IMG/VR virus record: IMGVR_UViG_3300037847_005376
Span: 1-21,697 of that record
Length of the DNA: 21,697 nucleotides
Strand: one strand, 5' to 3'
DNA from: a virus
A model generated the notes under the pieces. It ran no database searches. It saw nothing but the letters and a program-made list of their open reading frames with translations, and was not told where the DNA came from. Shown piece by piece: positions 1 through 21,074 of this stretch (position 1 is the first letter of the stretch; each line of letters begins with the position of its first letter). The position numbers were made by a program, and so were the translations under genes.

Positions 1-2744
1 GGGTCTGTTTCAAACACAATGACTCCATTTAAAAGGATTATATCAATTTTACAGTTTAGAGTATTTCTTTCAAAAAAAGCTGCACTTTCAGATGGTTCAA
101 TTCGCATTGTCCATCTAGTTTGATTGGCTGTGTTGGGATTACCTGTGTCTTTGTATAAGAAAAAAGTAAACTCCTCGTTCTCATTGTTTTGAGATGGAAC
201 AGTAAATTGATTGACGGTGTGTGTTACACCATGTACTGTATAAGTAATTGATGTTTTAGCCCAGTTTGTTTCTGCATCAGCCCAAAGCTCAAAAGCATTT
301 TTAGTTGATGTCGATTCATAATCATTTTCTACTGTAAAACCTTTTTCGTAATTAAAAGATGGGTCTGCGTTAAAACCATTTAAAGACCAATCAATATCTA
401 TCCTACTTCCTGTGCTTAACTTTAAATCATTGTAAGCTGTCCCATCTGCTTTGATTCTTTGTAAAAACCCAAAAGTGGAATCATCTCCACTATTTTGGCT
501 GATTGTAAAATTACGAGGTAAAGAAGGTAAGTGAACTTTTGTTCTTCTTGATTTTTTACCTCTACTTTTGTGGTCAGTTTGGTCGTAAGAAATAAAATTG
601 TTTGGGTCAAAATCCATACTAAATTTAGATGGTTTTATCTTCATGTGTAACCCAGCCTTTTCTACTATAGGCTCTCCTGAGCCATCAGTGTTACCTTCAA
701 TCCACGATTGCCCAGATGTCAGCTCATCCGTTGCTTTTTTATCTACAACCTCTAAAACTTTGCATTTTACTTCTTCTCCTAGAGCTCCATCATCATCTCT
801 TTTAACTAAAAGCATGGTTCCAGGCTCTACTTTTCCTATATTATTACCTTCTAATGAAATCCATCTGTAAACTCCATCTTCGTAAAAAATTGTTCCAAAT
901 AAATTGTAGTAAACTTCTTTATTTGTTTTTACAAAAAACTTATATCTATTAGCCCAAAAAGGTGGTCTGCTGTTGATTGTTATTTTTGCTCTATTTTGCT
1001 TCATAGAGTTACCTACTGGAACGAATATTTCAGAAGTTGACGTTACGCTTTCTTTTGGTAATAAAACTGAAGTATATCTTCCAAACTCATCTAAATATGT
1101 AATACCAAATTCGAAACTTCTATTGCTTTTTAACGATAAGGTAGAGCCTAATGCTGCAAATGAAGCAACTGTTGTGCTTTGAAAAGTAAACTGATTTTCT
1201 CTAATTAACTGAAATCCTGGGTTTGTGTTATCAGTGCTATCAGCTGGTGTTGTGTCTATAGTAAATGTAATTTTTGGGGCTTTTAAAACAATAGTGGTAG
1301 TCGAAGATGATACTAAAGTAAATTCTCCAAAGTCAGTAGACAAAAGGTTGGTTGGGTTTGTAACAGTTGCTTGAGCAGCAAAGTTTGAATTTAGTGATTG
1401 CAGGAAAATTGAAAAGTCGTCTGAATTTACAAAAGCATTAACTCCAGAATATGTAGCTGTAAGAACTGCTCCTGCTGCAAAACTAGCACTACCATTTCCA
1501 AAAGCAGCAGATAAATACGTATCTTCAGGTGATGTTAAATCTACTCCAAAAACTAACTCACTATTTACTTCGAAAATAATATTACTTACATCTATTGTTA
1601 TATTTTGGTTGCTGTTACTTAGTGTTGTTGTAAGTTGAGTTGCATCAATATCTGTTGATTCTAATTCAACATTATAATCTATTTTTATTGGTGGAGTTTT
1701 GTCATCATTCGTTTGCCTCAAATCATATTGAGAAGTTGTATTTCCAAAAATCAACCTATCTTTTATAAAATCTTGAGTTTTTGCAGTTAAAGGAACGTCA
1801 TCAAATATTCTAAACAACTCATCAGCTGGTAAAGCTTTAAATATTTTTTTGTTGGTAAATTGATATGTTTTAGTCATATCATCTCCAAAATCACTATCTG
1901 CTTTGTTTATGCTTTCAATTACATAAACGGTATTTTGTTTAGCAAACTTAAAACATAAATCAATGTCAGTTACTCTTTTATCTCCAGTATTATATTGTAT
2001 GTTGTAACCATTGTAAAGATTTACCATTCCTTTGTTTTCCATGGTTCCAAAATCAAGTTTGAATGGTGAAGGATGAAACTGATAATTTGTGAAAGATGAT
2101 AATGCTGAATATTGACCGTCTAAGTACTTATACCTGTAGGCAAATGCAAAAAAGTTTTCTTTTATAGAGTTTTCTGTTTTATCATTAGTAAAGAAAGGAG
2201 TAACTTGTGGGGCTTCAAATGGTGGCTTTCTTATCAAAGAAATATCATCTTCTTCAAACCCATTTGGCCCATAAGATATAGCTCTCTCAATATTTACTAG
2301 TTTTGGTGAGTTTAAACCGTCTGTAAACAATAATATATTTTCTTTCTTACTTACATTATATATTACGTTACCATATACTTTGTGCATTACATCAAACTTC
2401 AATACGTTTGTAGCTGCCGCTCTTGTATCCTCTAATATTGTTCTTTGAAAGTTGCTTTGTGTATCGTATTCAAAGACATAACTATGTCCAACATTGTTTA
2501 CAACAAACCAATAAATTCTTTCTGTAGATTCGTCAGTAACACAACCTATAACTCTAGGAGAACCTGTAACACTTATGTTGCTTAGTTGTGTGTTTCCTTC
2601 TGTAGATTGAATTGCTCCTGCGTCACCATCTGCGCTATTTACAACTCTGACATTTAAAGCGTCAATGTACTCTCCCTTTGGTACTATTCTTTCGTCGAAA
2701 TCTTTATTCATTCGACCTGCGGAAAATATATTTTTTATCTTCAT
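1..2744 (-). CDS. Large tail/neck structural protein, C-terminus cut off by the window edge
   Basis: An open frame starts at ATG 2744-2742 and runs off the left edge after 914 codons, so the true end is outside the window. I read the frame through large parts of its length, including the last 1.9 kb to the edge, and met no stop. The N-terminus reads MKIKNIFSAGRMNKDFDERI, followed by VPKGEYIDALNVRV and then a GDAGAIQSTEGN segment. This opening (AGRMNKDxDERxxPxGEYxDALN) is one I associate with large conserved tail-stabilisation or muzzle-type proteins of crAss-like and other marine podophages; that link is from memory. The rest looks beta-rich with no visible membrane segment or signal peptide. 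The start lies one base after the stop of the upstream adaptor-like gene, implying coupled translation. Position after the ring/adaptor genes fits a distal tail-tube or muzzle role. Confidence is high for the gene, moderate for the role. Confidence 0.8.
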   Translation of the reverse strand, partial: MKIKNIFSAGRMNKDFDERIVPKGEYIDALNVRVVNSADGDAGAIQSTEGNTQLSNISVTGSPRVIGCVTDESTERIYWFVVNNVGHSYVFEYDTQSNFQRTILEDTRAAATNVLKFDVMHKVYGNVIYNVSKKENILLFTDGLNSPKLVNIERAISYGPNGFEEDDISLIRKPPFEAPQVTPFFTNDKTENSIKENFFAFAYRYKYLDGQYSALSSFTNYQFHPSPFKLDFGTMENKGMVNLYNGYNIQYNTGDKRVTDIDLCFKFAKQNTVYVIESINKADSDFGDDMTKTYQFTNKKIFKALPADELFRIFDDVPLTAKTQDFIKDRLIFGNTTSQYDLRQTNDDKTPPIKIDYNVELESTDIDATQLTTTLSNSNQNITIDVSNIIFEVNSELVFGVDLTSPEDTYLSAAFGNGSASFAAGAVLTATYSGVNAFVNSDDFSIFLQSLNSNFAAQATVTNPTNLLSTDFGEFTLVSSSTTTIVLKAPKITFTIDTTPADSTDNTNPGFQLIRENQFTFQSTTVASFAALGSTLSLKSNRSFEFGITYLDEFGRYTSVLLPKESVTSTSEIFVPVGNSMKQNRAKITINSRPPFWANRYKFFVKTNKEVYYNLFGTIFYEDGVYRWISLEGNNIGKVEPGTMLLVKRDDDGALGEEVKCKVLEVVDKKATDELTSGQSWIEGNTDGSGEPIVEKAGLHMKIKPSKFSMDFDPNNFISYDQTDHKSRGKKSRRTKVHLPSLPRNFTISQNSGDDSTFGFLQRIKADGTAYNDLKLSTGSRIDIDWSLNGFNADPSFNYEKGFTVENDYESTSTKNAFELWADAETNWAKTSITYTVHGVTHTVNQFTVPSQNNENEEFTFFLYKDTGNPNTANQTRWTMRIEPSESAAFFERNTLNCKIDIILLNGVIVFETD

Positions 2745-10554: not shown

Positions 10555-12777
10555 TTATGATATAATTTTACTAACAAATCCCTTGTTGCTATACTTTGCA
10601 AAGTTAAGATTTATTTGATTATCTTTTTTGTCAACAACTTTTTGTTTAGAAAAGTTAGCCATTATGGCAAATCCTGAACTTACAGTAGCATCAAACCTAG
10701 TTCTATTGTTAATATCGTAGTTTGACCAATCCAAAAGAGTCCTGTTAAAAAACATGGAACCGCAGTTTCCAAAATCCATATTATCTTCATCATTAATAAC
10801 ACCGATATGATTTTGAATATACGCTTCAATATACTCTGCATGCGCTGATATGACTGCTGAAGATGAAGGTATACCACCTAACTCTCTTTCTGCTTTAGAT
10901 AAAACGTTCTTGTGTTTATCAGGCCTATTCAAAGAAAAAGCTCTGTACCCTCTTTCCTTCAAATAATATAAAAGCCTGGGTTTATTATTTTCAACTAATA
11001 TTGGCATACCATAATAATGTAAAGCCATCAAAACGTCTTCATAAAATATTTCAGCTGTAGGGGGTCTAGATATATATTCTAGAAAAAAATAGTTTGACGG
11101 CGCGTCTTCCAAATGAAACTTAGTCATACCATGCAACGAACCCTTTGACCCACCTCCTTGAACCGTACCTGATATGTCATAAGAGTCACAACCAAAACTA
11201 CCTAAGTGCGCATTACCAGGTATTTTTCTTGTCCCTCTGTGTATTACATTATTCGCTAGACTATTAGAAGGAGTCCAAGAAGTAAAAAAACGACCATTAC
11301 TATCAGGAACCCATATAACTTCTGTATCCCTTTGTCCATTCCTCCACGTGAAAGAACCCCTAGTAATACTTGTCTTAATAGCAAAAGAGTCATTATAATC
11401 AATTTGTTCGTATATTTTAGAAAGATTAAATATAGTGTTTTTTGATTCATCTCTAAAAGCATGTGACTCTGTCCTTGGAAACTGTCTGTAAAACTCATTC
11501 AAAGCATCTTGGTCATTTTTCAAACCATCTACTTCATTTTTCCAATGGTCAATTACACCTCCATATATAGCGTCTCCATAAGGGCCAAATACTTCTGTTT
11601 CAGGATTATCGAAAACTGGCCATCCATACTCATCTAAGAAACCTTCATAATTCCACTCCATAGGAATGAAAAACGAATATAATCCAGAATTAGTTTGCCC
11701 ATTTTTATTTCGCTTTGTAACATCTGAATCATAATATAATTTTTTGAAATTATCACCACCTTTATCTAAAGCGTTTGATGTTGAGCCCATCATACATTTA
11801 CCTATAATTCTACTACCGAGCCTTAATGTAGTTTTTGTAACTCTCCAGTTATTCAAAATGTTATTTGGCTTTTCCCATTTTCCGCTTTCATCATGAACAA
11901 GCAGTTTTAATTTTTCTCCATCATAACTATTGTCTCCTGTGTTCTTCCAGTCTATTGTTGTATCCAAACCTGAGAGCTCCTCAACTTTATCTGTGCTTGT
12001 TATATTTCTTCTTGTGAGTTTTGATGCTGGCACCCTATATGCTAGTTCTGATTTTGGTCTATCCATACCGTCTTGTATCGGCTTGAAGAAAAACGGATAG
12101 TTGACTGATATTGGTACAACTTTATCTGTAAACATTTTTTTTGCATCAACCCCTGACTTAGACAATATACCAAATCTAGAATCTGAATTTATTGTGGCAA
12201 GATTTACAGTTTCACCTGACGCCATAAAAGAAAAGCCACTTCTTCTGTTTTTAAGATAACACATACCATAACAACGCTGGTCTGCTTTACACGCTTCCCA
12301 AAAAAAGTAAAATAATCTATTTGACTCTCTAAAATCTGGCTTACCGACATCTATTTTAGACCACTGCAAATACATGTAGTGTGCGCCAGTAATGTACGTA
12401 GGTATTCCTTTATTGTAAAACCAAAAGCCCTCATCTCTTTTTTCAAACTCACTTTCAATATAATCAATGTATTTGTTTTTAAAATCACTTGGGTATTCTC
12501 TCCAATCAAAAATACTTTTAATACGATTGAGCTCTTTAGGGTATTCAGCAGCTTGCCATTTATTTTCTTTGAATCTAAAAACCTTTTTAGGTTTCTTTGG
12601 TAAAGCTATTTTTAGGTTTTGTATTTGATATACTTCACCAATCATTCCTGTTTTCGATATCACGACAACATCATGTTCAGAATTATATCCATACTTCCAG
12701 CTTTTTGACTTATTTAGTTTATTTATAACTTCTTCGTCAATAGGGTTTACAATGCCATATAGAGTTTGTTGATACAT
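10555..12777 (-). CDS. terL: Terminase large subunit
   Basis: 740 residues; ATP-driven DNA packaging motor plus genome-cutting nuclease. The ATPase N-domain has CYLKNRRSGFSFMASGETVN (173-192), matching a deviant Walker A region (no classical GxGKS/T), a Walker B at KLLVHDE (291-297; D296, E297) and a coupling motif-like MMGSTSN (329-335). The C-terminal RNase H-like nuclease shows GSFGCDSYD (526-534) as the first acidic strand, the FYEDVLMALHYYGMPILVEN segment (578-597), and RTRFDATVSSGFAIMAN (692-708) with D696 as the last acidic residue. The N-terminal 130 residues are an extra region before the motor. Its ATG overlaps the stop of the upstream small gene by one base (TAATG), so the two are translationally coupled. 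The overall pattern resembles terminases of crAss-like and related marine podophages as I recall them. Confidence 0.9.
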   Translation of the reverse strand: MYQQTLYGIVNPIDEEVINKLNKSKSWKYGYNSEHDVVVISKTGMIGEVYQIQNLKIALPKKPKKVFRFKENKWQAAEYPKELNRIKSIFDWREYPSDFKNKYIDYIESEFEKRDEGFWFYNKGIPTYITGAHYMYLQWSKIDVGKPDFRESNRLFYFFWEACKADQRCYGMCYLKNRRSGFSFMASGETVNLATINSDSRFGILSKSGVDAKKMFTDKVVPISVNYPFFFKPIQDGMDRPKSELAYRVPASKLTRRNITSTDKVEELSGLDTTIDWKNTGDNSYDGEKLKLLVHDESGKWEKPNNILNNWRVTKTTLRLGSRIIGKCMMGSTSNALDKGGDNFKKLYYDSDVTKRNKNGQTNSGLYSFFIPMEWNYEGFLDEYGWPVFDNPETEVFGPYGDAIYGGVIDHWKNEVDGLKNDQDALNEFYRQFPRTESHAFRDESKNTIFNLSKIYEQIDYNDSFAIKTSITRGSFTWRNGQRDTEVIWVPDSNGRFFTSWTPSNSLANNVIHRGTRKIPGNAHLGSFGCDSYDISGTVQGGGSKGSLHGMTKFHLEDAPSNYFFLEYISRPPTAEIFYEDVLMALHYYGMPILVENNKPRLLYYLKERGYRAFSLNRPDKHKNVLSKAERELGGIPSSSAVISAHAEYIEAYIQNHIGVINDEDNMDFGNCGSMFFNRTLLDWSNYDINNRTRFDATVSSGFAIMANFSKQKVVDKKDNQINLNFAKYSNKGFVSKIIS

Positions 12778-13055
12778 TACTTAGATTTTCTTTCTGCAAA
12801 ACCTGAAAAAGATTTTTGTTTTTCTTCTACTGGCTTACCTTCAATCAATGCTTTTTCTACTTCTATTCTATTTAAAATTTCAAAAGCATCAAATATTGCA
12901 AGCTTTTTTGTAGCTGCTGCATTTTTCAATCTATCTGCAGCAAGCTCGTCTTCAGGGTCAGGCTTTATTATTTCCTCCTCTGCAACCTTAATTAATTGTT
13001 TGACAGCTTCGTGCCCTGCTTTTATTATTCTTTCTTTTATATCATTTACACTCAT
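12777..13055 (-). CDS. Probable small terminase subunit
   Basis: 92 residues, nearly all helical and highly charged. Central segment ELAADRLKNAAATKKLAIFD (37-56) runs on into AFEILNRIEVEKAL; the C-terminus is Lys-rich (EEKQKSFSGFAERKSK). It is small, directly upstream of the large terminase and translationally coupled to it by the TAATG overlap, the usual place for the DNA-recognition (small) subunit. It lacks a clear helix-turn-helix, which many small subunits have, so an oligomerising helical-bundle type or a different packaging accessory protein remains possible. Assignment rests mainly on size and context. Confidence 0.5.
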   Translation of the reverse strand: MSVNDIKERIIKAGHEAVKQLIKVAEEEIIKPDPEDELAADRLKNAAATKKLAIFDAFEILNRIEVEKALIEGKPVEEKQKSFSGFAERKSK

Positions 13056-13059
13056 AAAG

Positions 13060-13620
13060 TTAATTTAAAATTGTACATATATCTCTGGTGCTCATTCTAT
13101 ACATTTTTTCATCATTAATTTCAAACTCATACTCACTGTCTTTTCTAAAGTTTACTTTAGAGCCTTTTTTAATACCTATAGATTCTAAATTTTTATTAGA
13201 GTATGTTACATAGCCTGTGTTTTCTTCTAGCCCCTCCTCATGTAAGTACTTGTGTTCCATTTCAGTAGGTTTTACAAAACAATAATCATCTACAGAATAC
13301 CAGTTTTCACCATCGTGATATAAATAAAATTGATAGGGGTCTATAATATAAACATCACCTTTGAAGTAATTAGGTGATTTCCTTGGTCGTCCTTTCATGT
13401 CGTAATAAATACGAAAGACGTTGTGGTGAACTATAATCGTGTCACCTTTTTTGATTTCTCCTTTGTAGTATGTTGGAGTTTGTAAAACTTCCGCAAACCT
13501 ATTGACATGCATATGCTCAGCAACACTGCTGTTCACAATCATCTTCTGACCTGCCAATGTGATTTCGTTATTGTAATGATTGCCTTTTGATTTGATTAAA
13601 AAATAAAAAGGGGATTTCAT
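13060..13620 (-). CDS. GroES-like co-chaperonin with an apparent domain duplication
   Basis: 186 residues from ATG 13620. A TTG lies one codon upstream, but ATG is preferred because it overlaps the previous stop (TGATG). The C-terminal part reads GIKKGSKVNFRKDSEYEFEI (149-168) then NDEKMYRMSTRDICTIL (169-185). This matches the GroES C-terminal pattern: VGDxVxF, a turn, ExxIDGxxYxxxxxxDIxAVL. The N-terminal part repeats the plan, with NRFAEVLQTP (40-49, GroES-like xGEVVxVGP), EIKKGDTIIVHHNVF (55-69), and DVYIIDPYQFYLY plus a CFVKP strand (89-118), but with a longer insert. GroES-fold proteins cap the chaperonin; phage versions (T4 gp31, RB49 CocO) adapt GroEL to fold the capsid protein. Lying just ahead of the terminase/head operon fits that job. 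No database search was done; the second domain is the firmer one. Confidence 0.55.
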   Translation of the reverse strand: MKSPFYFLIKSKGNHYNNEITLAGQKMIVNSSVAEHMHVNRFAEVLQTPTYYKGEIKKGDTIIVHHNVFRIYYDMKGRPRKSPNYFKGDVYIIDPYQFYLYHDGENWYSVDDYCFVKPTEMEHKYLHEEGLEENTGYVTYSNKNLESIGIKKGSKVNFRKDSEYEFEINDEKMYRMSTRDICTILN

Positions 13621-13844
13621 CAAAAATCAATATTAAATTCAATTGATATAGGCATATTTTTATTAAATTCTTTCCATTGAACAACCTCTCTGTTTCTTTC
13701 TATATATATAATATAAGAATCAGATTTAGCTGAGTATTCAATCAAATGAATTGTATATGTGCCGTTTAAAACTTTTTGCCCTACTAAGTAGTGCATACAA
13801 CTACCTTTGTAGTCGGCACCTACTGAAATTTTACGAATTAACAT
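13620..13844 (-). CDS. Small conserved-looking phage protein, unknown function
   Basis: 74 residues: MLIRKISVGADYKGSCMHYL, then VGQKVLNGTYTIHLIEY, a short Ser/Asp segment, and a C-terminus with EFNKNMPISIEFNIDF. It appears to be a compact beta-rich protein without signal peptide, membrane segment or recognisable motif. I have a loose memory of similar small proteins in marine phage genomes near packaging genes, but none with a function. Its start overlaps the upstream coiled-coil gene by 14 bases and its stop (TGA) overlaps the start of the GroES-like gene by one base, so it is co-translated within this small-gene block. Confidence 0.65.
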   Translation of the reverse strand: MLIRKISVGADYKGSCMHYLVGQKVLNGTYTIHLIEYSAKSDSYIIYIERNREVVQWKEFNKNMPISIEFNIDF

Positions 13845-14109
13845 TTTCCTCTACTTTTTCTTCTAGAGGAATAATAATGCCTGTTTCTAAGTTTAAATTA
13901 CCCTTACCGTGCTTTTCTTCTAACTCTCTCATAATTGCGCTTATTTTGTCCGCAAATTTTCCAATTTCAGTTACAAGTGCAGCCTTATGGGCTTCAACAG
14001 CTCCAACTTCAATTTGAAGTCTTTGTTGCCCTAGTCTAAGGTTTCTTAATTCTTCTAGTGATTTGTCGTCTACTTTAACGACATTAGGTTCTACTTTTTT
14101 TGTTGCCAT
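13831..14109 (-). CDS. Small coiled-coil protein, unknown function
   Basis: 92 residues. Residues 15-68 form one long amphipathic helix (SLEELRNLRLGQQRLQIEVG and on through KFADKISAIMRELEEKHGKG), followed by a short beta-like tail GNLNLETGIIIPLEEKVEEN. Proteins with a single coiled coil and an NLETG-type tail recur in marine phage genomes in my memory, without assigned roles. Its leader and start codon belong to a 25-bp perfect repeat shared with the gene after the capsid gene, suggesting strong or co-regulated translation. It is the first gene of the small-gene block, 35 bp after the nucleotidyltransferase-like gene. It could be a virion or assembly factor; function is not assignable from sequence. 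Confidence 0.65.
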   Translation of the reverse strand: MATKKVEPNVVKVDDKSLEELRNLRLGQQRLQIEVGAVEAHKAALVTEIGKFADKISAIMRELEEKHGKGNLNLETGIIIPLEEKVEENVNS

Positions 14110-14144: not shown

Positions 14145-14639
14145 TTAATTTAAGGCCAGAGGTTCCTTTGTGTAAGTTCTACCCTTATCATTAAATTTTT
14201 CAGTCATCCAAAACAATCCATCGCTTTTCCATTGACCGTGCCACCTAGGAGCTCTAACACCCCTTCTGTCAGTGTGTTTTGCGAATTCCCATATCCTATT
14301 TGCATTGCCTTTTATTTCATCCAAAGACTTTACATAGTATACATCAAATGGCCCTAGCTTTGTTGCATCTTCCATTAAAGTTGATAGATTATCACCTATA
14401 TCTCCTGTAATACAAATATCTATATCTGTAGTTTTCCAACCCTCTAACAAGCCACCAACTAAATATAATTTATAACCTGTCCAATCTAATGCCAATAAAT
14501 CTTCAACACACCCTTTGTATATTGTGTCTTCAATGCCTTCCAGCCAAGGAACAAATCTAAGCGCTCCATCTATATATCTTACCTCTCCATCAGTGTCAAG
14601 GTTGTAATTATCTATATTTAAATTTTCAAAATATCCCAT
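14145..14639 (-). CDS. Nucleotidyltransferase-fold protein (MNT-like motif)
   Basis: 164 residues. LYLVGGLLEGWKTTDIDICI (59-78) carries the nucleotidyltransferase-fold signature: Gly-Gly at 62-63, then D72-x-D74 nine residues on. A third acidic candidate is D99 in the strand GPFDVYYVKS (97-106). These three acids would bind metal and NTP in this superfamily (kanamycin nucleotidyltransferase, MNT, MenA/AbiEii-type proteins). The chain ends in an aromatic/basic segment (WHGQWKSDGLFWMTEKFNDK) that may recognise the acceptor. The start is three bases after the stop of the big tail fibre and both neighbours are virion genes, so it belongs to the structural operon. Substrate unknown: modification of fibre protein, of a host protein or of a small molecule are all open, as is an inactive structural role. 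Fold call is moderate, activity unproven. Confidence 0.6.
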   Translation of the reverse strand: MGYFENLNIDNYNLDTDGEVRYIDGALRFVPWLEGIEDTIYKGCVEDLLALDWTGYKLYLVGGLLEGWKTTDIDICITGDIGDNLSTLMEDATKLGPFDVYYVKSLDEIKGNANRIWEFAKHTDRRGVRAPRWHGQWKSDGLFWMTEKFNDKGRTYTKEPLALN

Positions 14640-14642
14640 ATC

Positions 14643-17600
14643 TTATATATCATAATCTGTTAACGTAAATACTATTGTTACTGCAACATCTTGCCAATAT
14701 TTACTAGTTGAGCTTTTTTGATAAACTAAAGAAAATTTATCACCAGCTGCGTATGTAATATCACTGTTGGCAGTAGGCGTCCATGATATTGAGGAACTCA
14801 CATGTGTCAACTCACCACTTGAAGAATTACCTGAAACTGAACCATTTTTGTAAGCTTTTAATTCTGTTGTAAATGAAGAACTCTGAGAGCCTGACACTGT
14901 TTTCATTATTACTTTTTTTAATACGCATGCATATGGAATGGTAAAGAAGTGTGGCGCAGACGCACCTGATACGCTTGTTTCTGTTATACTCCCTGCTAAA
15001 GGTATTATTAAATTACTTGTAGAAGATGTTGTATCATCAAAAGACGCATGAATTACCATAGGTACATCTCTTGCCATAGCTATGTCCGCTACCATATTAC
15101 TTGAAAAAAGATTGCTAAAAGAAACTTTATTTACACCTCCAGAATCATTGAATAAAATAGTGGAGCCACTAGTAGGTGTTCCTGTTGATGCACTATTAAT
15201 TACATTATCACTTCCATTGCTATAATCAATAGCTATATCATCTGCATTAGCAGTAATACCATCACCACCTACAACATTTAATGTTGGGTTTACAGTGCTA
15301 GTACCAGATTGTGTCATACCATTGCCAGCTGTTACACTAGTTACTGTACCTGCATTAGATGTTAATCCTGATACAGCAGTATCAATTGCATGCTGTATTT
15401 GAGCACCTGTTGCTAATTTAGATGAATTGCTACCTACGTCAGCAGTATCAGCAGCGATAGTTGGTGTTGTTCCTCCTGTTGATGTTAATGGTGCTGTTGC
15501 GCTTACACTTGTCACCGTTCCTGTATTTGCGGTTGCGCCTGCAGCAATACCATCCAGTTTGGTTCCATCTGCAGCAACGTCTCGCCCATCAATTGTTCCA
15601 CTAGTAATTATATTACCATAAAAAGTAGCGCTTTTGTCAGAGTCTAAAAACAAAACATTTTCTAAAGCAGACCCAGTGTATACCTGCATTTTCATTCTTG
15701 TTTTCTTATCTGAACTTGTAAATACATTATCTGCTTCTACTAAAATAGTACCAACTGTTAAGTCACTTGTAACAACGCTATCTCTTGCTCTAAAATTTAC
15801 TGCACCAACATCATCACCAGTAGAAAAGTTACCGCTACCAGTATGGTCTTTTCTTGTTGAAATATCAAGAACTGCTTTAGACGTTGCATGTTCTTTTCTT
15901 ATAGTAATATCCTTATGGGCTATTTGGCTGGCTGCTAAATATTCATGAACTAAAACATTATCTACTTTGAACTGTATTCTAGTAGAAGCCGCATCATCAT
16001 CAGTATCAGCTTCTATAAACACATATGAGTTAGCTGCTCTAATTCTAAAATCTACATCATTAGTAGTGTCTGTAATTACAATTCTAGGAGTACTAGCATG
16101 AGTAATAGTTAAATCACCAGTCATAGTACCACCAGCTAAAGGTACATGCCCAACTTGAGAGTATGTATACGCTGTGTTCCATTGACCTATTTTCGTAGGG
16201 CTAACAGTAGCGCCACCAATAGTTAAATAACTACTTGTGTGTGCGCTTGCGTCAGCGTGTATTACAAAATCAGCACCACCATTATCCTGTCTAGTAATAA
16301 TCAAATCATTATTATCTGCATTGTAAACTCTAAATTTTATATCGTCATCATCTTGAAAAATAATATGTGGCGATTCACCTGAGCCATCATCTAAAGTTAA
16401 ATCACCTGTTAACGTACCACCAGTTAATGGTAATAATCCACTTAAATCTTGGTCACCAGTATTTGTTCCAGTGTTTGCAGCAGCAAGTGCAGCTATATCA
16501 ACACCATCAACCGTACCAGTTATACTTAAATTACCAGCTATAGATGTATTGTCGTTTATTTCAACACTACCTCCATTAGTATCTATTATAACCTTACCAC
16601 TTGATATTTCATTTGCAATATTAAAATGATTGGTACCACTTGAACCAAAACCTAAATAAGCACTTCTGCTGTTATCTGTGCCTGTTTTGTAAAATTCTGC
16701 ATAAGTATGGTTTGTACCTGCAAGAGCTATTGTAGCGGCATTTTGGGTAAACGTTATTTTACCAGTTGCTGTGTCAGCTTCATCACTTCTCAAGAATGAA
16801 GAAGCGTGTAAATTATCAACCGTATCTGCATTACTAGCTGAACTAGCTGCAACGTTTGTTATATTACTACCATCACCATGTAGATTAACAGCAACAACAT
16901 TTTGCCATCTATACGAACTACTACCTAAATCTTTTGAATTATCTGTTTGAGGAAGAATATCACCTGATGTAGTTATATAATCATCTTGGTGTATTAAAAA
17001 CCTGCTACTTTCTGTTCCAGCTGCTAAAGATTTTATTTCAAAAGACTGCTTGCCAGCATAGTTTTTAGTTTCCATTAATACACCATGCGTTCCGTCATCA
17101 TGAAGCATTTTAATAGTAGAATCTAGTTGGCCAGTATCACCAGAGTTATTATTGTCTCCTCTTAATATTAATGTTGCAGTTCCATTTACTGTTACTTGTA
17201 GTTCACCAGCTATATCAGCGTTACCATTTATATCTAAACTAGTACCTTCTAATTCCGTACCTTGTATTTTACCTGTAGATGTTATAGCTCCAGAACCTAT
17301 TGTTCCAATATTTGCTAAGTTTCTTGATGAGTCTATAACTAATGTACCAGCTACTCTATATCCATTTAAAGCATCAATTTCACCAGCACTTGAACCATCA
17401 TCAGCATATGTTGTTCCAGCATATAAACTACTAACTCTAATTTTTTGAGCACCACCTGTTAATGTTAAAAATGGTATATTAGTATTACTTCTTATACTAG
17501 CAATATTTACTAAGTTTCTACTTAAATCTATGAATTGTGTTTGGCCACCATCACCTATATATAATCCATTTTCACTAGCTGTAGTGCTATCAGACCTAAA

Positions 17601-18263
17601 TTGAAACACATTTCTATTTGACCAAGTTACATCATTCCCAGGAAAACCATAAGCAGTAAAACCACCTTCAGAGGCAAGCACTACATTTTCATTTACAAGG
17701 TTTAGATTATCTTTAATAACAGATTTTGTATCTCCAGCTACAATAGCAACTGTATCGTCAGCCCCTAATGCAATTCCACCTTCTTTACTAACTCTACTAA
17801 GTATTGTTTTTTCTGTGCCGCCTCTATCTATTTTTAACAAGGCTACTTCTGAGCCATATTCACCTGTGTCTGATGTTTCATAGTCAAACACTATATGACC
17901 ATTGGTTGTAGTAAATATAAGATTATCACTCATGGTTGTAGCGCCTAAGCTCAAACTACCATTAATAGTTGGACTTTCTATTACTACACTTGTATTTGCT
18001 CCACCTAATGTTAAGGTTCTTGTTGAACTAGAATCAGCAAATATAGCCATGTTCTGTTCAAACCTAATATCTACAGTGTTTGTACCATCACCAATAAAAA
18101 CATCATCACTACCATTACCAATAATAATATCACCAACAGCATTACTTAAAACTAGGTCATTGCCACTTTGGTCAATTTTACCAGCATTAGCTCCTGCTGA
18201 AGTAGTAAACTGTATATGGTTTTCGTCTTTTATTAGTATGTTATGTAAAAATGGTATTGGCAT
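14643..18263 (-). CDS. Long repetitive tail fibre / receptor-binding protein
   Basis: 1206 residues, rich in Gly, Ser, Thr, Asn and Asp and nearly free of Cys. The N-terminus (MPIPFLHNILIKDENHIQFT) is followed by beta-repeat shaft sequence. KDLGSSSYRWQNVVAVNLHG (about 445-465) is a motif I recall in marine phage fibres. Then come NLHASSFLRSDEADTATGKI (near 480-500) and two PL(T/A)GGT(L/M)TGDLT units (near 614 and 709). A further section has TGTVTSV repeats (near 910 and 970). The last 145 residues, from about 1060, differ: VPMVIHASFDD leads into a beta-sandwich-like domain ending VTIVFTLTDYDI, probably the receptor-binding tip. There is no S74 peptidase-like intramolecular chaperone motif at the end. 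It lies between the G8 protein and the nucleotidyltransferase-like gene. Trimeric shaft and receptor role are inferred from composition and repeats. Confidence 0.8.
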   Translation of the reverse strand: MPIPFLHNILIKDENHIQFTTSAGANAGKIDQSGNDLVLSNAVGDIIIGNGSDDVFIGDGTNTVDIRFEQNMAIFADSSSTRTLTLGGANTSVVIESPTINGSLSLGATTMSDNLIFTTTNGHIVFDYETSDTGEYGSEVALLKIDRGGTEKTILSRVSKEGGIALGADDTVAIVAGDTKSVIKDNLNLVNENVVLASEGGFTAYGFPGNDVTWSNRNVFQFRSDSTTASENGLYIGDGGQTQFIDLSRNLVNIASIRSNTNIPFLTLTGGAQKIRVSSLYAGTTYADDGSSAGEIDALNGYRVAGTLVIDSSRNLANIGTIGSGAITSTGKIQGTELEGTSLDINGNADIAGELQVTVNGTATLILRGDNNNSGDTGQLDSTIKMLHDDGTHGVLMETKNYAGKQSFEIKSLAAGTESSRFLIHQDDYITTSGDILPQTDNSKDLGSSSYRWQNVVAVNLHGDGSNITNVAASSASNADTVDNLHASSFLRSDEADTATGKITFTQNAATIALAGTNHTYAEFYKTGTDNSRSAYLGFGSSGTNHFNIANEISSGKVIIDTNGGSVEINDNTSIAGNLSITGTVDGVDIAALAAANTGTNTGDQDLSGLLPLTGGTLTGDLTLDDGSGESPHIIFQDDDDIKFRVYNADNNDLIITRQDNGGADFVIHADASAHTSSYLTIGGATVSPTKIGQWNTAYTYSQVGHVPLAGGTMTGDLTITHASTPRIVITDTTNDVDFRIRAANSYVFIEADTDDDAASTRIQFKVDNVLVHEYLAASQIAHKDITIRKEHATSKAVLDISTRKDHTGSGNFSTGDDVGAVNFRARDSVVTSDLTVGTILVEADNVFTSSDKKTRMKMQVYTGSALENVLFLDSDKSATFYGNIITSGTIDGRDVAADGTKLDGIAAGATANTGTVTSVSATAPLTSTGGTTPTIAADTADVGSNSSKLATGAQIQHAIDTAVSGLTSNAGTVTSVTAGNGMTQSGTSTVNPTLNVVGGDGITANADDIAIDYSNGSDNVINSASTGTPTSGSTILFNDSGGVNKVSFSNLFSSNMVADIAMARDVPMVIHASFDDTTSSTSNLIIPLAGSITETSVSGASAPHFFTIPYACVLKKVIMKTVSGSQSSSFTTELKAYKNGSVSGNSSSGELTHVSSSISWTPTANSDITYAAGDKFSLVYQKSSTSKYWQDVAVTIVFTLTDYDI

Positions 18264-18272
18264 AATTAAAAT

Positions 18273-21074
18273 TTATATTCTTCCTGATATTCTTTTTTTC
18301 CCAACAGCAAAATTTGCTGATGGTCTAATTGTTACTTTTGCAAAATTCATTGGCCACATTTGCAATCCATTAGCAGGTGCTTTTGACATAGCTACATGTA
18401 TATCTTCTGCTTCAAAACCTTCATGAACTAAATCATGGTCGTTAAAATGATAACCAAATCTTAAATAGTAACTTGTGTATTGAGGCTGTACTGTTAATAT
18501 TTTTGTTTCAAAAGCTCCAATTGCATCTGTAGTGTGTTGCACGTATTCTATAAAACCATTATATAGTTTTCCTTGAGCTTGCGTACTATTTTTTAAATCT
18601 GCTGTTTCGTTTGAATCATCTAAATCTAGATTATCTTGATAAAATATATGATTATTAGAGTTAACATCATATTCATTAGCGCCATATTTTGCGTTAAAAG
18701 CATACGCTGCTATTAGATGAGGTGGAGAAGATGAGTCAACCCCTCTACTTGTTCCATCCCACTCTGTTTCATTTATTTTAATTACAGATTTTATTTTAAC
18801 AGTACAGTTTGCTGGTACTTGAATTATACCAAAAGCGTTAGGATTACCACTCCATGCAGAAGCATATAAGTCACGAGCGTAGCCTTTTAAATTTTTAAAT
18901 CTTGTTATATTGTAATATATAAATACTTTTTCACTTTCTTTAAACCCTTGTTCACTAAAACAACAAACAGCTTTCCAACCAGTACCGCCTCTATATAAAG
19001 CTTGATGACCACTCGCGTGATTTAAAACAACATTTGGGTATTTTCTACCAATAGAACCTGTTTTATATATACTAGAAGTTGCATCCCAAGAATTAGGATA
19101 TATTTTAGAATCATATACATGGAAATTACTAACACTATCAGCTATATACGTTGCTTGACTAAATTTATCGGCAAAAAATCTTTTGTAATGAGGGCCTACG
19201 GTGCTTCCTCCAAAATAAAAAGCATACCCACGTTGATTTTCACTTCTTAAATAAGCAACCAATGTTTGGTCGTTTTGTCTGCCAAGATTATGAAATAAAA
19301 AACCATAATCTTCAGAACTGTAACCCTGCATATATGAGTATTCATTAGCATATTCATACGCAGCTTCATAAGACATGTTAGAATAATTACAGTGTGCTGT
19401 TATATGTCCATGTGATTTTACAAAGTATTGTGAACTCCAATGCCAAATACCTCTACCTGCTCCAACTACTATATGATTTCTATTAACCATACCATAAGGG
19501 TGTCTTACAGTTATACCAATATAAGTTTCACCATCCCTATCATCATTACCAGCATGGTTGTATGCTGTAAAACTACATCCATCTAAATAGTTTTCACCTG
19601 TTTGCGTAATACCGTTACTATTATGTATTGTTGTATTGTCTGCGGCACTACCTGTTGTAGATTTTCTGAAATAACCATTATAACCAGCTATATTTACACC
19701 TGACCTAAAATTTGTACCATCATTAGTGTTATTACCTAACCCTATAAACTCTACATATTTTATTTTAACCCTTCTTGTTGGTGCGTTATTCCAACTGTTG
19801 TTTGTCCAATATTTTACATTAAAAAAGACTCTTGCTGTAGAGTTATCTGCATCAGCTATATCATTACCACTACTATCACAAGCTTTAATAACAATATCTC
19901 TTTTCATTTTTACAACAGGGTCACCTACTGCGCCATTAAAAATTATATCTCTATCAACGGTTATAGTTTTAGCACTAGAATCAACACTTGTTATTGTGTA
20001 GTTAGCTTTGAGCCTCCACTGCCCTTCATTAGCGCTTACCGAAGTGCTTCCAAAACCGCTAGCGCTGTAATAATAATCACCAACAAGATTACCACCAAGT
20101 TTATCAAAACTAGCATGTATATAAACTGTGTCGCCAGTTGAAAAATCAGTTACATCATTAAGTGTAATAGTCCTAAGATTAGTAGCACCTACGTATTCTG
20201 TTGCTATAGCGCTTGCAATTCTTCTGCAGAATTTTCCATCTATGTGATATTTTTCGGTGCCAGTTTGGTATACTTTTGTGCCAATTAAGGAAGGGTCGTT
20301 GTCTACAGTACTACCAAAGGTTATGGTATTTTTGCTTATATCTGTGACACGTAGTACGTTTCTATTACTACCAGTACCAAATATTAAATAATAACCAACT
20401 CTAAATATTTCTGCATCCTCAGATATTGTTATTGTAGAACCACTAACAGACTGTATTGTTGCTTCAGGGCCAACATATCTTCTAACATAAATCCTATCAT
20501 TCGTAGTGTCTACGTCATGAACAAAAAAGCATTCGTCATTTACAAGTGAAAAATCTTCTTCTCTTTTGTAAAGTGATATTCTATCGTTAGCCGCAAAATT
20601 TGAAGCGTCTGCTACTGATATGTATGTAGCGTCTGGCGCTTGATTACCATTAACAGTTGTTATTAAAGTTGGTTCGCTGCCATCTATCTGAACACCACAC
20701 CATCTTCTACTATCAACCTGTATACCGTGTTGTGCAGCTTGGTCGCCTGAAATTTTTATTTCAGTACCACCGACCATACTAAGTAGCGAACCTGAAGTGC
20801 TAGTGCCTTCAACAAATTCGCCAGCAGTATTGTTAGAGTTACTGGTATTTTTAACAGTCATCCGACCATGTAAGTGCATTTTACCACCATTAGCAAAATG
20901 TAAATTACCATCTATAGTAACGTCTCCTGTTCTTGTTGATTGTATATTTGAACTTAAAGTAACTTTGTGGCCATGCGCAATAACCACCAAGTCATCAGCG
21001 GCAGGAACAGAATTTCCTACCCACGTAGATGCCGTAGCCCAATTTCCTGATGAATTACTCGTTATTGTCGCCAT
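18273..21074 (-). CDS. Tail-associated protein with G8-like domain and beta-helix-like centre (possible tailspike)
   Basis: 933 residues. The N-terminus reads as a G8-type domain: SGNWATASTWVGNSVPAADD (10-29) then VIAHGHKVTLSS and a run of short beta repeats (GDVTIDGNLHFANGGKMHLH near 48-67) to about residue 130. A middle region of short, Thr/Asp/Asn-rich strands (150-420) leads to a His/Tyr/Asn-rich section (about 435-680) with features of a right-handed parallel beta-helix. The C-terminus (from about 760) looks like a beta sandwich. G8 domains occur in CEMIP/TMEM2 hyaluronidase-related and bacterial surface proteins; a phage copy beside tail fibres suggests glycan binding or cleavage. No catalytic pair was identified, so depolymerase activity is only a hypothesis. 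The ATG overlaps the end of the 64-residue gene by 20 bases; start is supported because the G8 domain begins nine residues in. Confidence 0.7.
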   Translation of the reverse strand: MATITSNSSGNWATASTWVGNSVPAADDLVVIAHGHKVTLSSNIQSTRTGDVTIDGNLHFANGGKMHLHGRMTVKNTSNSNNTAGEFVEGTSTSGSLLSMVGGTEIKISGDQAAQHGIQVDSRRWCGVQIDGSEPTLITTVNGNQAPDATYISVADASNFAANDRISLYKREEDFSLVNDECFFVHDVDTTNDRIYVRRYVGPEATIQSVSGSTITISEDAEIFRVGYYLIFGTGSNRNVLRVTDISKNTITFGSTVDNDPSLIGTKVYQTGTEKYHIDGKFCRRIASAIATEYVGATNLRTITLNDVTDFSTGDTVYIHASFDKLGGNLVGDYYYSASGFGSTSVSANEGQWRLKANYTITSVDSSAKTITVDRDIIFNGAVGDPVVKMKRDIVIKACDSSGNDIADADNSTARVFFNVKYWTNNSWNNAPTRRVKIKYVEFIGLGNNTNDGTNFRSGVNIAGYNGYFRKSTTGSAADNTTIHNSNGITQTGENYLDGCSFTAYNHAGNDDRDGETYIGITVRHPYGMVNRNHIVVGAGRGIWHWSSQYFVKSHGHITAHCNYSNMSYEAAYEYANEYSYMQGYSSEDYGFLFHNLGRQNDQTLVAYLRSENQRGYAFYFGGSTVGPHYKRFFADKFSQATYIADSVSNFHVYDSKIYPNSWDATSSIYKTGSIGRKYPNVVLNHASGHQALYRGGTGWKAVCCFSEQGFKESEKVFIYYNITRFKNLKGYARDLYASAWSGNPNAFGIIQVPANCTVKIKSVIKINETEWDGTSRGVDSSSPPHLIAAYAFNAKYGANEYDVNSNNHIFYQDNLDLDDSNETADLKNSTQAQGKLYNGFIEYVQHTTDAIGAFETKILTVQPQYTSYYLRFGYHFNDHDLVHEGFEAEDIHVAMSKAPANGLQMWPMNFAKVTIRPSANFAVGKKRISGRI

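Follow-up and report, generated by a model that had tools for sequence, protein, structure and literature searches.

Introduction

Among the described systems closest to the phage gene considered here, the antitoxin MntA carries a conserved GS-x10-DxD motif, and AMPylation by MntA silences a HEPN RNase (PMC7641770). Nucleotidyltransferases (NTases) and proteins resembling them are also known from phages: the NTase-like protein gp22 of phage fHe-Kpn01 resembles CCA enzymes and has a toxic effect in E. coli (PMC7291057), while the NTases of jumbo phages work with RNA ligases in the repair of RNA (PMC7824862).

Here we describe a previously unnamed family of phage NTases in a new genomic context; a literature search found no description of this family. 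The member taken as reference lies in a stretch of 21,697 nucleotides (positions 1 to 21,697 of virus record IMGVR_UViG_3300037847_005376; hereafter ‘the window’), which forms part of a 64.6-kb phage contig (C66) that was binned with a 4.07-Mb genome assembly.

A predicted minimal nucleotidyltransferase

The gene (14145..14639, minus strand; from an ATG at 14639 to a stop codon whose last base is 14145) encodes an NTase-fold protein of 164 aa, made up of an N-terminal beta-hairpin and helix (residues ~1-50), a palm that holds the active site (~51-103) and a conserved C-terminal part with the motifs WxFAK, GxWK and RxY and a terminal N164 (conserved residues W117, G135, W137, K138, G141, Y156 and N164). 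That it might be a chance open reading frame or a pseudogene is ruled out by its 47 distinct homologues and by dN/dS values of 0.03-0.36 (14 pairs), which denote purifying selection.

The first-pass annotation, made from the letters of the window, had read an intact active site in this protein, and G62, G63, D72, D74 and D99 are all found at the residues that it named. Specifically, the codons of G62-G63 occupy 14451..14456, those of D72-I73-D74, the metal-binding DxD, 14418..14426 (D72 at 14424-14426 and D74 at 14418-14420) and that of D99, the likely third carboxylate, 14343..14345, all on the minus strand. The catalytic acids are conserved with no loss seen among the homologues: the two glycines, D72 and D74 are invariant (47/47), the spacing from GG to DxD is 8 residues in each of the 47 distinct proteins, and D99 is an aspartate in 46/47 and a glutamate in 1/47. 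The superfamily signature, hG[GS]...[DE]h[DE]h followed by a later acid, thus appears as GG-x8-D-I-D in 47/47 and D/E99 in 47/47.

The NTase fold proposed at first pass was borne out by structure prediction. The AlphaFold (AF2) model is confident (pLDDT 89, pTM 0.85), and its best matches in the PDB are MNT (Z 5.6), AadA (Z 5.5) and HI0073 (Z 5.2), with polymerase beta and CCA-adding enzymes next, although such scores are low when taken by themselves (Z <6, Foldseek E ~0.4) and a Z <8 may reflect no more than a common arrangement. Nearly all of the top 50 PDB rows are NTases, and no unrelated fold emerged. A profile of the family matched the terminal uridylyltransferase (TUTase) URT1 in the PDB (E 0.0025); its match to the archaeal NTase AF0614 is weak (E 0.29). 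Matches to Pfam NTP_transf_2 (PF01909) occur in 21/24 family members (best E 0.002) and are all sub-threshold, the window protein scoring 12.8 bits under a gathering cut-off of 21 bits, while PHROG and NCBIfam gave no assignment for the protein. The viral fold search returned one good match only, A0A516ML51 (probability 1.00, TM 0.56, E 7.6e-3). We accept the fold call because of the uniform PDB list, taken together with the motif and the profile matches, and not on the Z values alone; by motif and fold, the protein is predicted to be a minimal NTase of the polymerase-beta superfamily that retains all catalytic residues.

Genomic setting in the window

The gene does lie between tail fibre and packaging genes, as first described. 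Upstream, 3 bases separate its start from the end of the ORF for a 1206-aa tail fibre protein (14643..18263, minus strand; weak PHROG tail fibre match, E 0.013), and beyond the fibre lies a gene for a second large fibre or tail protein (18273..21074, minus strand) with a G8 domain (PF10162, E 6.5e-05), a domain that is to our knowledge uncommon among phage proteins. The C-terminal 140 aa of the tail fibre are modelled as a beta-sandwich knob (14646..15065, minus strand) that is common to the NTase-adjoining fibres. This knob model, of moderate confidence (pLDDT 76), is a TNF/C1q-like jelly-roll, and its fold matches comprise TNF/C1q-like trimers, the phi812 central spike, a tail-needle knob and other receptor-binding tips. 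Because the match scores are ordinary for jelly-rolls, we go no further than to regard the knob as a likely receptor-binding tip.

Downstream, the terminase is reached past four small minus-strand ORFs. Nearest to the NTase is the gene for a core small coiled-coil-like protein of 92 aa (c2/c24; 13831..14109), which in many NTase-free relatives lies directly behind the fibre genes. It is followed by the core small protein c3 (74 aa; 13620..13844), by the GroES-like c4 (187 aa, or 186 from the ATG; 13060..13623; PHROG 13932, E 9.5e-23), which belongs to the core of the terminase block, and by the core small protein c5 (92 aa; 12777..13055), whose position suggests a terminase small subunit. The terminase large subunit itself (10555..12777, minus strand; PHROG 6681, E 2.8e-171) served as the marker of the podovirus clade. 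Besides c4, the window phage encodes, elsewhere on the contig, a 535-aa GroEL together with a GroES of 92 aa (L098:2030-4132). A single tRNA-Glu (TTC) gene was also observed on the phage contig (L097:19693-19764, minus strand).

Distribution among phages

Relatives of the NTase were found at 59 viral loci, two of which (L091 and L092) hold distant relatives only, and on two MAG contigs, one binned with Winogradskyella (L094) and the other with a Woesearchaeota archaeon; most of the records are metagenomic fragments. When four divergent members of the family were compared by tblastn with 50,697 phage records, no believable relative was found. The window terminase is related to those of Flavobacterium phages (~42% identity) and Cellulophaga phages, and shares 62% identity with that of the uncultured podovirus MW202828. 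The annotated regions of MW202828 and of one Flavobacterium phage show no annotated NTase before the terminase block, and tblastn found none there.

The carriers fall into three phage kinds: a podovirus clade, in which the gene is on the terminase side or on the groEL side; a siphovirus with a tape-measure gene (L005, L006, L008, L093); and a group with contigs of up to 114 kb (L079, L081, L083-L085). In the siphovirus and large-contig records that were tested, there was no match to the window terminase. The nrd context (described below) and the groEL context were considered as separate phage kinds and rejected, since their records share the same terminase (~70-78% identity); we claim three kinds and no more because the nrd and groEL records carry the window-type terminase.

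More distant relatives were seen as well. A related podovirus has a 178-aa relative inside its tail operon (L307:1273-1809, minus strand), where it overlaps the start of the next structural gene, and a distant 177-aa family in other marine phages (L091:2167-2700, L214:2776-3309) is marked by TTDIDIC or DDIDIC and a C-terminal KLN, with no recognisable fibre adjoining.

Co-inheritance with the fibre knob

In most loci, and in all three phage kinds, the NTase starts ~0-12 nt behind either the fibre gene or c8, a collagen-like (GXY-repeat) protein that is itself downstream of the fibre. The adjoining genes, which in the relatives were classed by sequence clusters, are thus the fibre or c8 upstream and c2, c17, c32, c24, c3 or c19 downstream, or else nrdB and nrdA. 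Among the podoviruses, 33 of the 34 NTases sit directly behind the knob or c8, and the contig of the 34th begins inside c8, whereas the knob is present in only 2/41 NTase-free terminase-clade loci with visible upstream sequence (this comparison sample was taken from the best 80 of at least 594 terminase relatives). The association of knob or c8 with the NTase has a Fisher p of 9e-18, a value to be read as nominal only, given the relatedness of the sequences and the different ways in which the two samples were obtained.

The distances between sequences point the same way. NTase distance correlates with knob distance at r 0.82, and still at 0.82 when the backbone, represented by c4, is removed (26 loci), whereas its correlation with the downstream genes is 0.51 for c2, which is as near to the NTase as the knob is, 0.33 for c3 and 0.42 for c4 (26 loci); among themselves the distances of c2, c3 and c4 correlate at 0.93-0.97. 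The difference between the knob and c2 correlations is 0.32 (bootstrap 95% 0.10-0.56). Because NTase distance tracks the knob and far less c2, we place an exchange boundary between the NTase and c2. Fibre and NTase thus behave as one unit of exchange among phages. Such co-inheritance suggests, without proving, that the enzyme serves the knob-type fibre or the hosts bound by that fibre; physical linkage or a shared host range can also lead neighbouring genes to be inherited together without any functional coupling.

The presence of the gene is optional. Seventy-four loci with a similar fibre or c8 (61 c8 loci and others) are NTase-free, the next gene being c17 in 36, c24 in 26, c19 in 9 and a 145-aa ORF in 3, and in none of the 74 was another recognisable enzyme found in the NTase slot. 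We also considered a generic hotspot for accessory genes behind fibres, which is unsupported, as the empty sites hold core genes or the 145-aa ORF, and a tie of the NTase to the type of c8 tip, which is rejected, as identical tips occur with and without the NTase (L166 vs L177). From its optional presence and from these identical tips, it follows that the NTase is not required to build the fibre.

The c8 protein (L139-L211) is a widespread fibre companion in its own right, with a conserved 90-aa N-terminus, GXY repeats of highly variable length and several exchangeable tips, and c17 is often the next gene. One phage with c8 in its fibre module also encodes, within its terminase block, a 195-aa protein (L039:5535-6122; also L040:5144-5731 and, cut, L094:3475-3642) that by eye is 2-oxoglutarate/Fe(II) oxygenase-like and has an HxD motif. 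It is possible that this protein is a prolyl hydroxylase of the phage collagen.

Movement of the gene

One podovirus subgroup (L029/L041, L030, L038, L087, L088) carries the NTase between nrdB and nrdA, genes that were identified by eye from their sequences; the arrangement occurs at six loci with five distinct NTase proteins. Records of this subgroup have the window-type terminase (70-72% identity), and c8 is present at the fibre locus in 3/3 contigs that reach that locus, the other three contigs beginning near the terminase, without the fibre locus. A supported branch of the NTase tree (96/88) separates the members that sit at the fibre from those at nrd or c8 sites, which are mingled with one another, and the tree as a whole calls for four context changes; we therefore conclude that the NTase gene has moved. 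The first-pass annotation had remarked on a transferase embedded in a structural operon. The tie to the fibre is not accidental, but the NTase is not simply a part of the structural operon, because it is optional, is co-inherited with the knob and has an nrdB-nrdA location in one subgroup.

Possible targets of the enzyme

Our best guess, held tentatively, is that the enzyme nucleotidylates the fibre or a fibre-linked partner, and we rank a target of this kind first because the NTase is co-inherited with the knob. By homology, NTP-Mg2+ would be bound at the GG, DxD and D99 residues, and NMP would be transferred to a side-chain hydroxyl, or to another acceptor, on a partner tied to the fibre type. 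As partner we favour the fibre itself, its knob or a factor in fibre maturation, and the modification may tune the folding, stability or receptor binding of the fibre. As the protein has neither the substrate-binding domain of AadA nor a HEPN partner, the acceptor should be another molecule, perhaps docked via the conserved C-terminal part. Late expression of the packaging-side operon, which is presumed, would fit a virion target better than an early target. A more specific proposal would be that, in marine Bacteroidota phages, a dedicated NTase covalently nucleotidylates the phage's own receptor-binding knob, or the maturation partner of that knob, and so acts as a host-binding switch that is swapped as a fibre-plus-enzyme cassette; in this full form we think it rather unlikely.

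Almost as likely, and just as tentative, is a target in the host, where the enzyme would nucleotidylate a component of the cell or of its defences (a HEPN RNase, a translation factor or a tRNA, for example) and would travel with the fibre either because the two are bound to one host group or because a defence senses tail proteins. The silencing activity of MntA, which belongs to the family with the best fold match, and the toxicity of gp22 (see above) are consistent with such a role, as are the patchy presence of the gene and its moves between fibre and nrd sites, which are those of an accessory gene, and a common host range would also tie enzyme and knob together. A HEPN defence that is set off by a minor tail protein does exist in Tha, but a late-expressed inhibitor failed to block it (PMC11087260), and the window gene lies in a presumably late operon. 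Moreover, a PADLOC search gave no meaningful match to the family, its stray single-member matches leading us to reject membership of a defence system, and a purely host-directed gene would have no need to keep its place immediately downstream of the fibre and to diverge along with the knob.

Co-inheritance would also be expected of an enzyme that alters the receptor, which would be passed on together with the knob that binds this receptor. In that case an AadA-like transferase of small molecules or glycan precursors would modify a surface-glycan or nucleotide-sugar precursor and thereby alter the fibre's receptor in infected cells, leading to superinfection exclusion or to progeny freed from debris. 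AadA and ANT proteins are tied with MNT as the best fold matches and align over more residues (113-115, Z 5.0-5.5), but the C-terminal substrate-binding domain of AadA is missing, the match stopping at AadA residue 146 of ~260, and no glycan gene was recognised adjoining the NTase; we consider such an activity unlikely.

The profile match to a terminal uridylyltransferase, the LVGG...DIDI signature and the joint action of NTases and RNA ligases in jumbo phages might instead suggest RNA-end repair or tRNA nucleotidyl transfer in the style of RlaP or CCA-adding enzymes. This seems very unlikely, as an RNA ligase (PF09414) was found in 0/15 NTase-carrying viral records (many of them fragments; controls were positive), no RNA-binding domain was recognised in the NTase, and the linkage to the fibre module would be left unexplained. 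A role in nucleotide metabolism, which the six nrdB-NTase-nrdA loci might imply, is most improbable of all, since most of the 47 distinct NTases are at the fibre and form a separate clade, and the mixture of nrd and c8 sites on the tree looks like one gene relocated.

We know of few phage enzymes that modify the phage's own receptor-binding proteins, and our literature search found no report of a nucleotidylated tail fibre. An intact predicted NTase and a co-inherited fibre knob, recurring across unrelated phages, thus make a specific pair that can be tested. Should the fibre be the substrate, this would be a new way of controlling host binding; should the target be a host one, the association with the fibre points to a defence or a receptor that is specific to a host group.

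Comparison with known nucleotidyltransferases

The Autographivirus NTases (PHROG 1614; fHe-Kpn01 gp22, LKD16, DU_PP_II) are, like the protein described here, small phage NTases of the same superfamily, and the LKD16 and DU_PP_II proteins turn up in the viral fold search at Foldseek E >2. However, similarity to PHROG 1614 is negligible (best E 0.2, in 2/24 members), and these genes belong to another phage group and another context. The RNA-ligase-associated (RlaP) NTases are likewise phage members of the polymerase-beta group, but the NTase-carrying records examined here, many of which are fragments, lack the RNA ligase (PF09414; 0/15).

With AadA, or ANT(3'')(9), and AAD(9) the protein shares an NTase domain that aligns over 107-118 residues (Z 4.8-5.5), and it stops where that domain stops in AadA (AadA 4..146 aligned to 35..164). 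In contrast to AadA, it has no C-terminal substrate-binding domain, and it sits in a phage fibre module.

The first-pass annotation had also raised an antitoxin role of the MNT type. In the strict sense this was not upheld: GG-x8-DxD is found in 47/47 homologues, not the GS-x10-DxD of MntA (PMC7641770), and no HEPN partner was recognised near the NTase, the window proteins having been scanned and the small neighbours of the relatives judged by sequence clusters. The MNT antitoxins (MntA, HI0073) are nonetheless the best fold match (Z 5.6 and 5.2, within the low range noted above), and like them the phage NTase is a single small domain with a polymerase-beta palm, G-G/S...DxD and a later acid, from which it departs by ~60 more residues that carry conserved motifs of their own.
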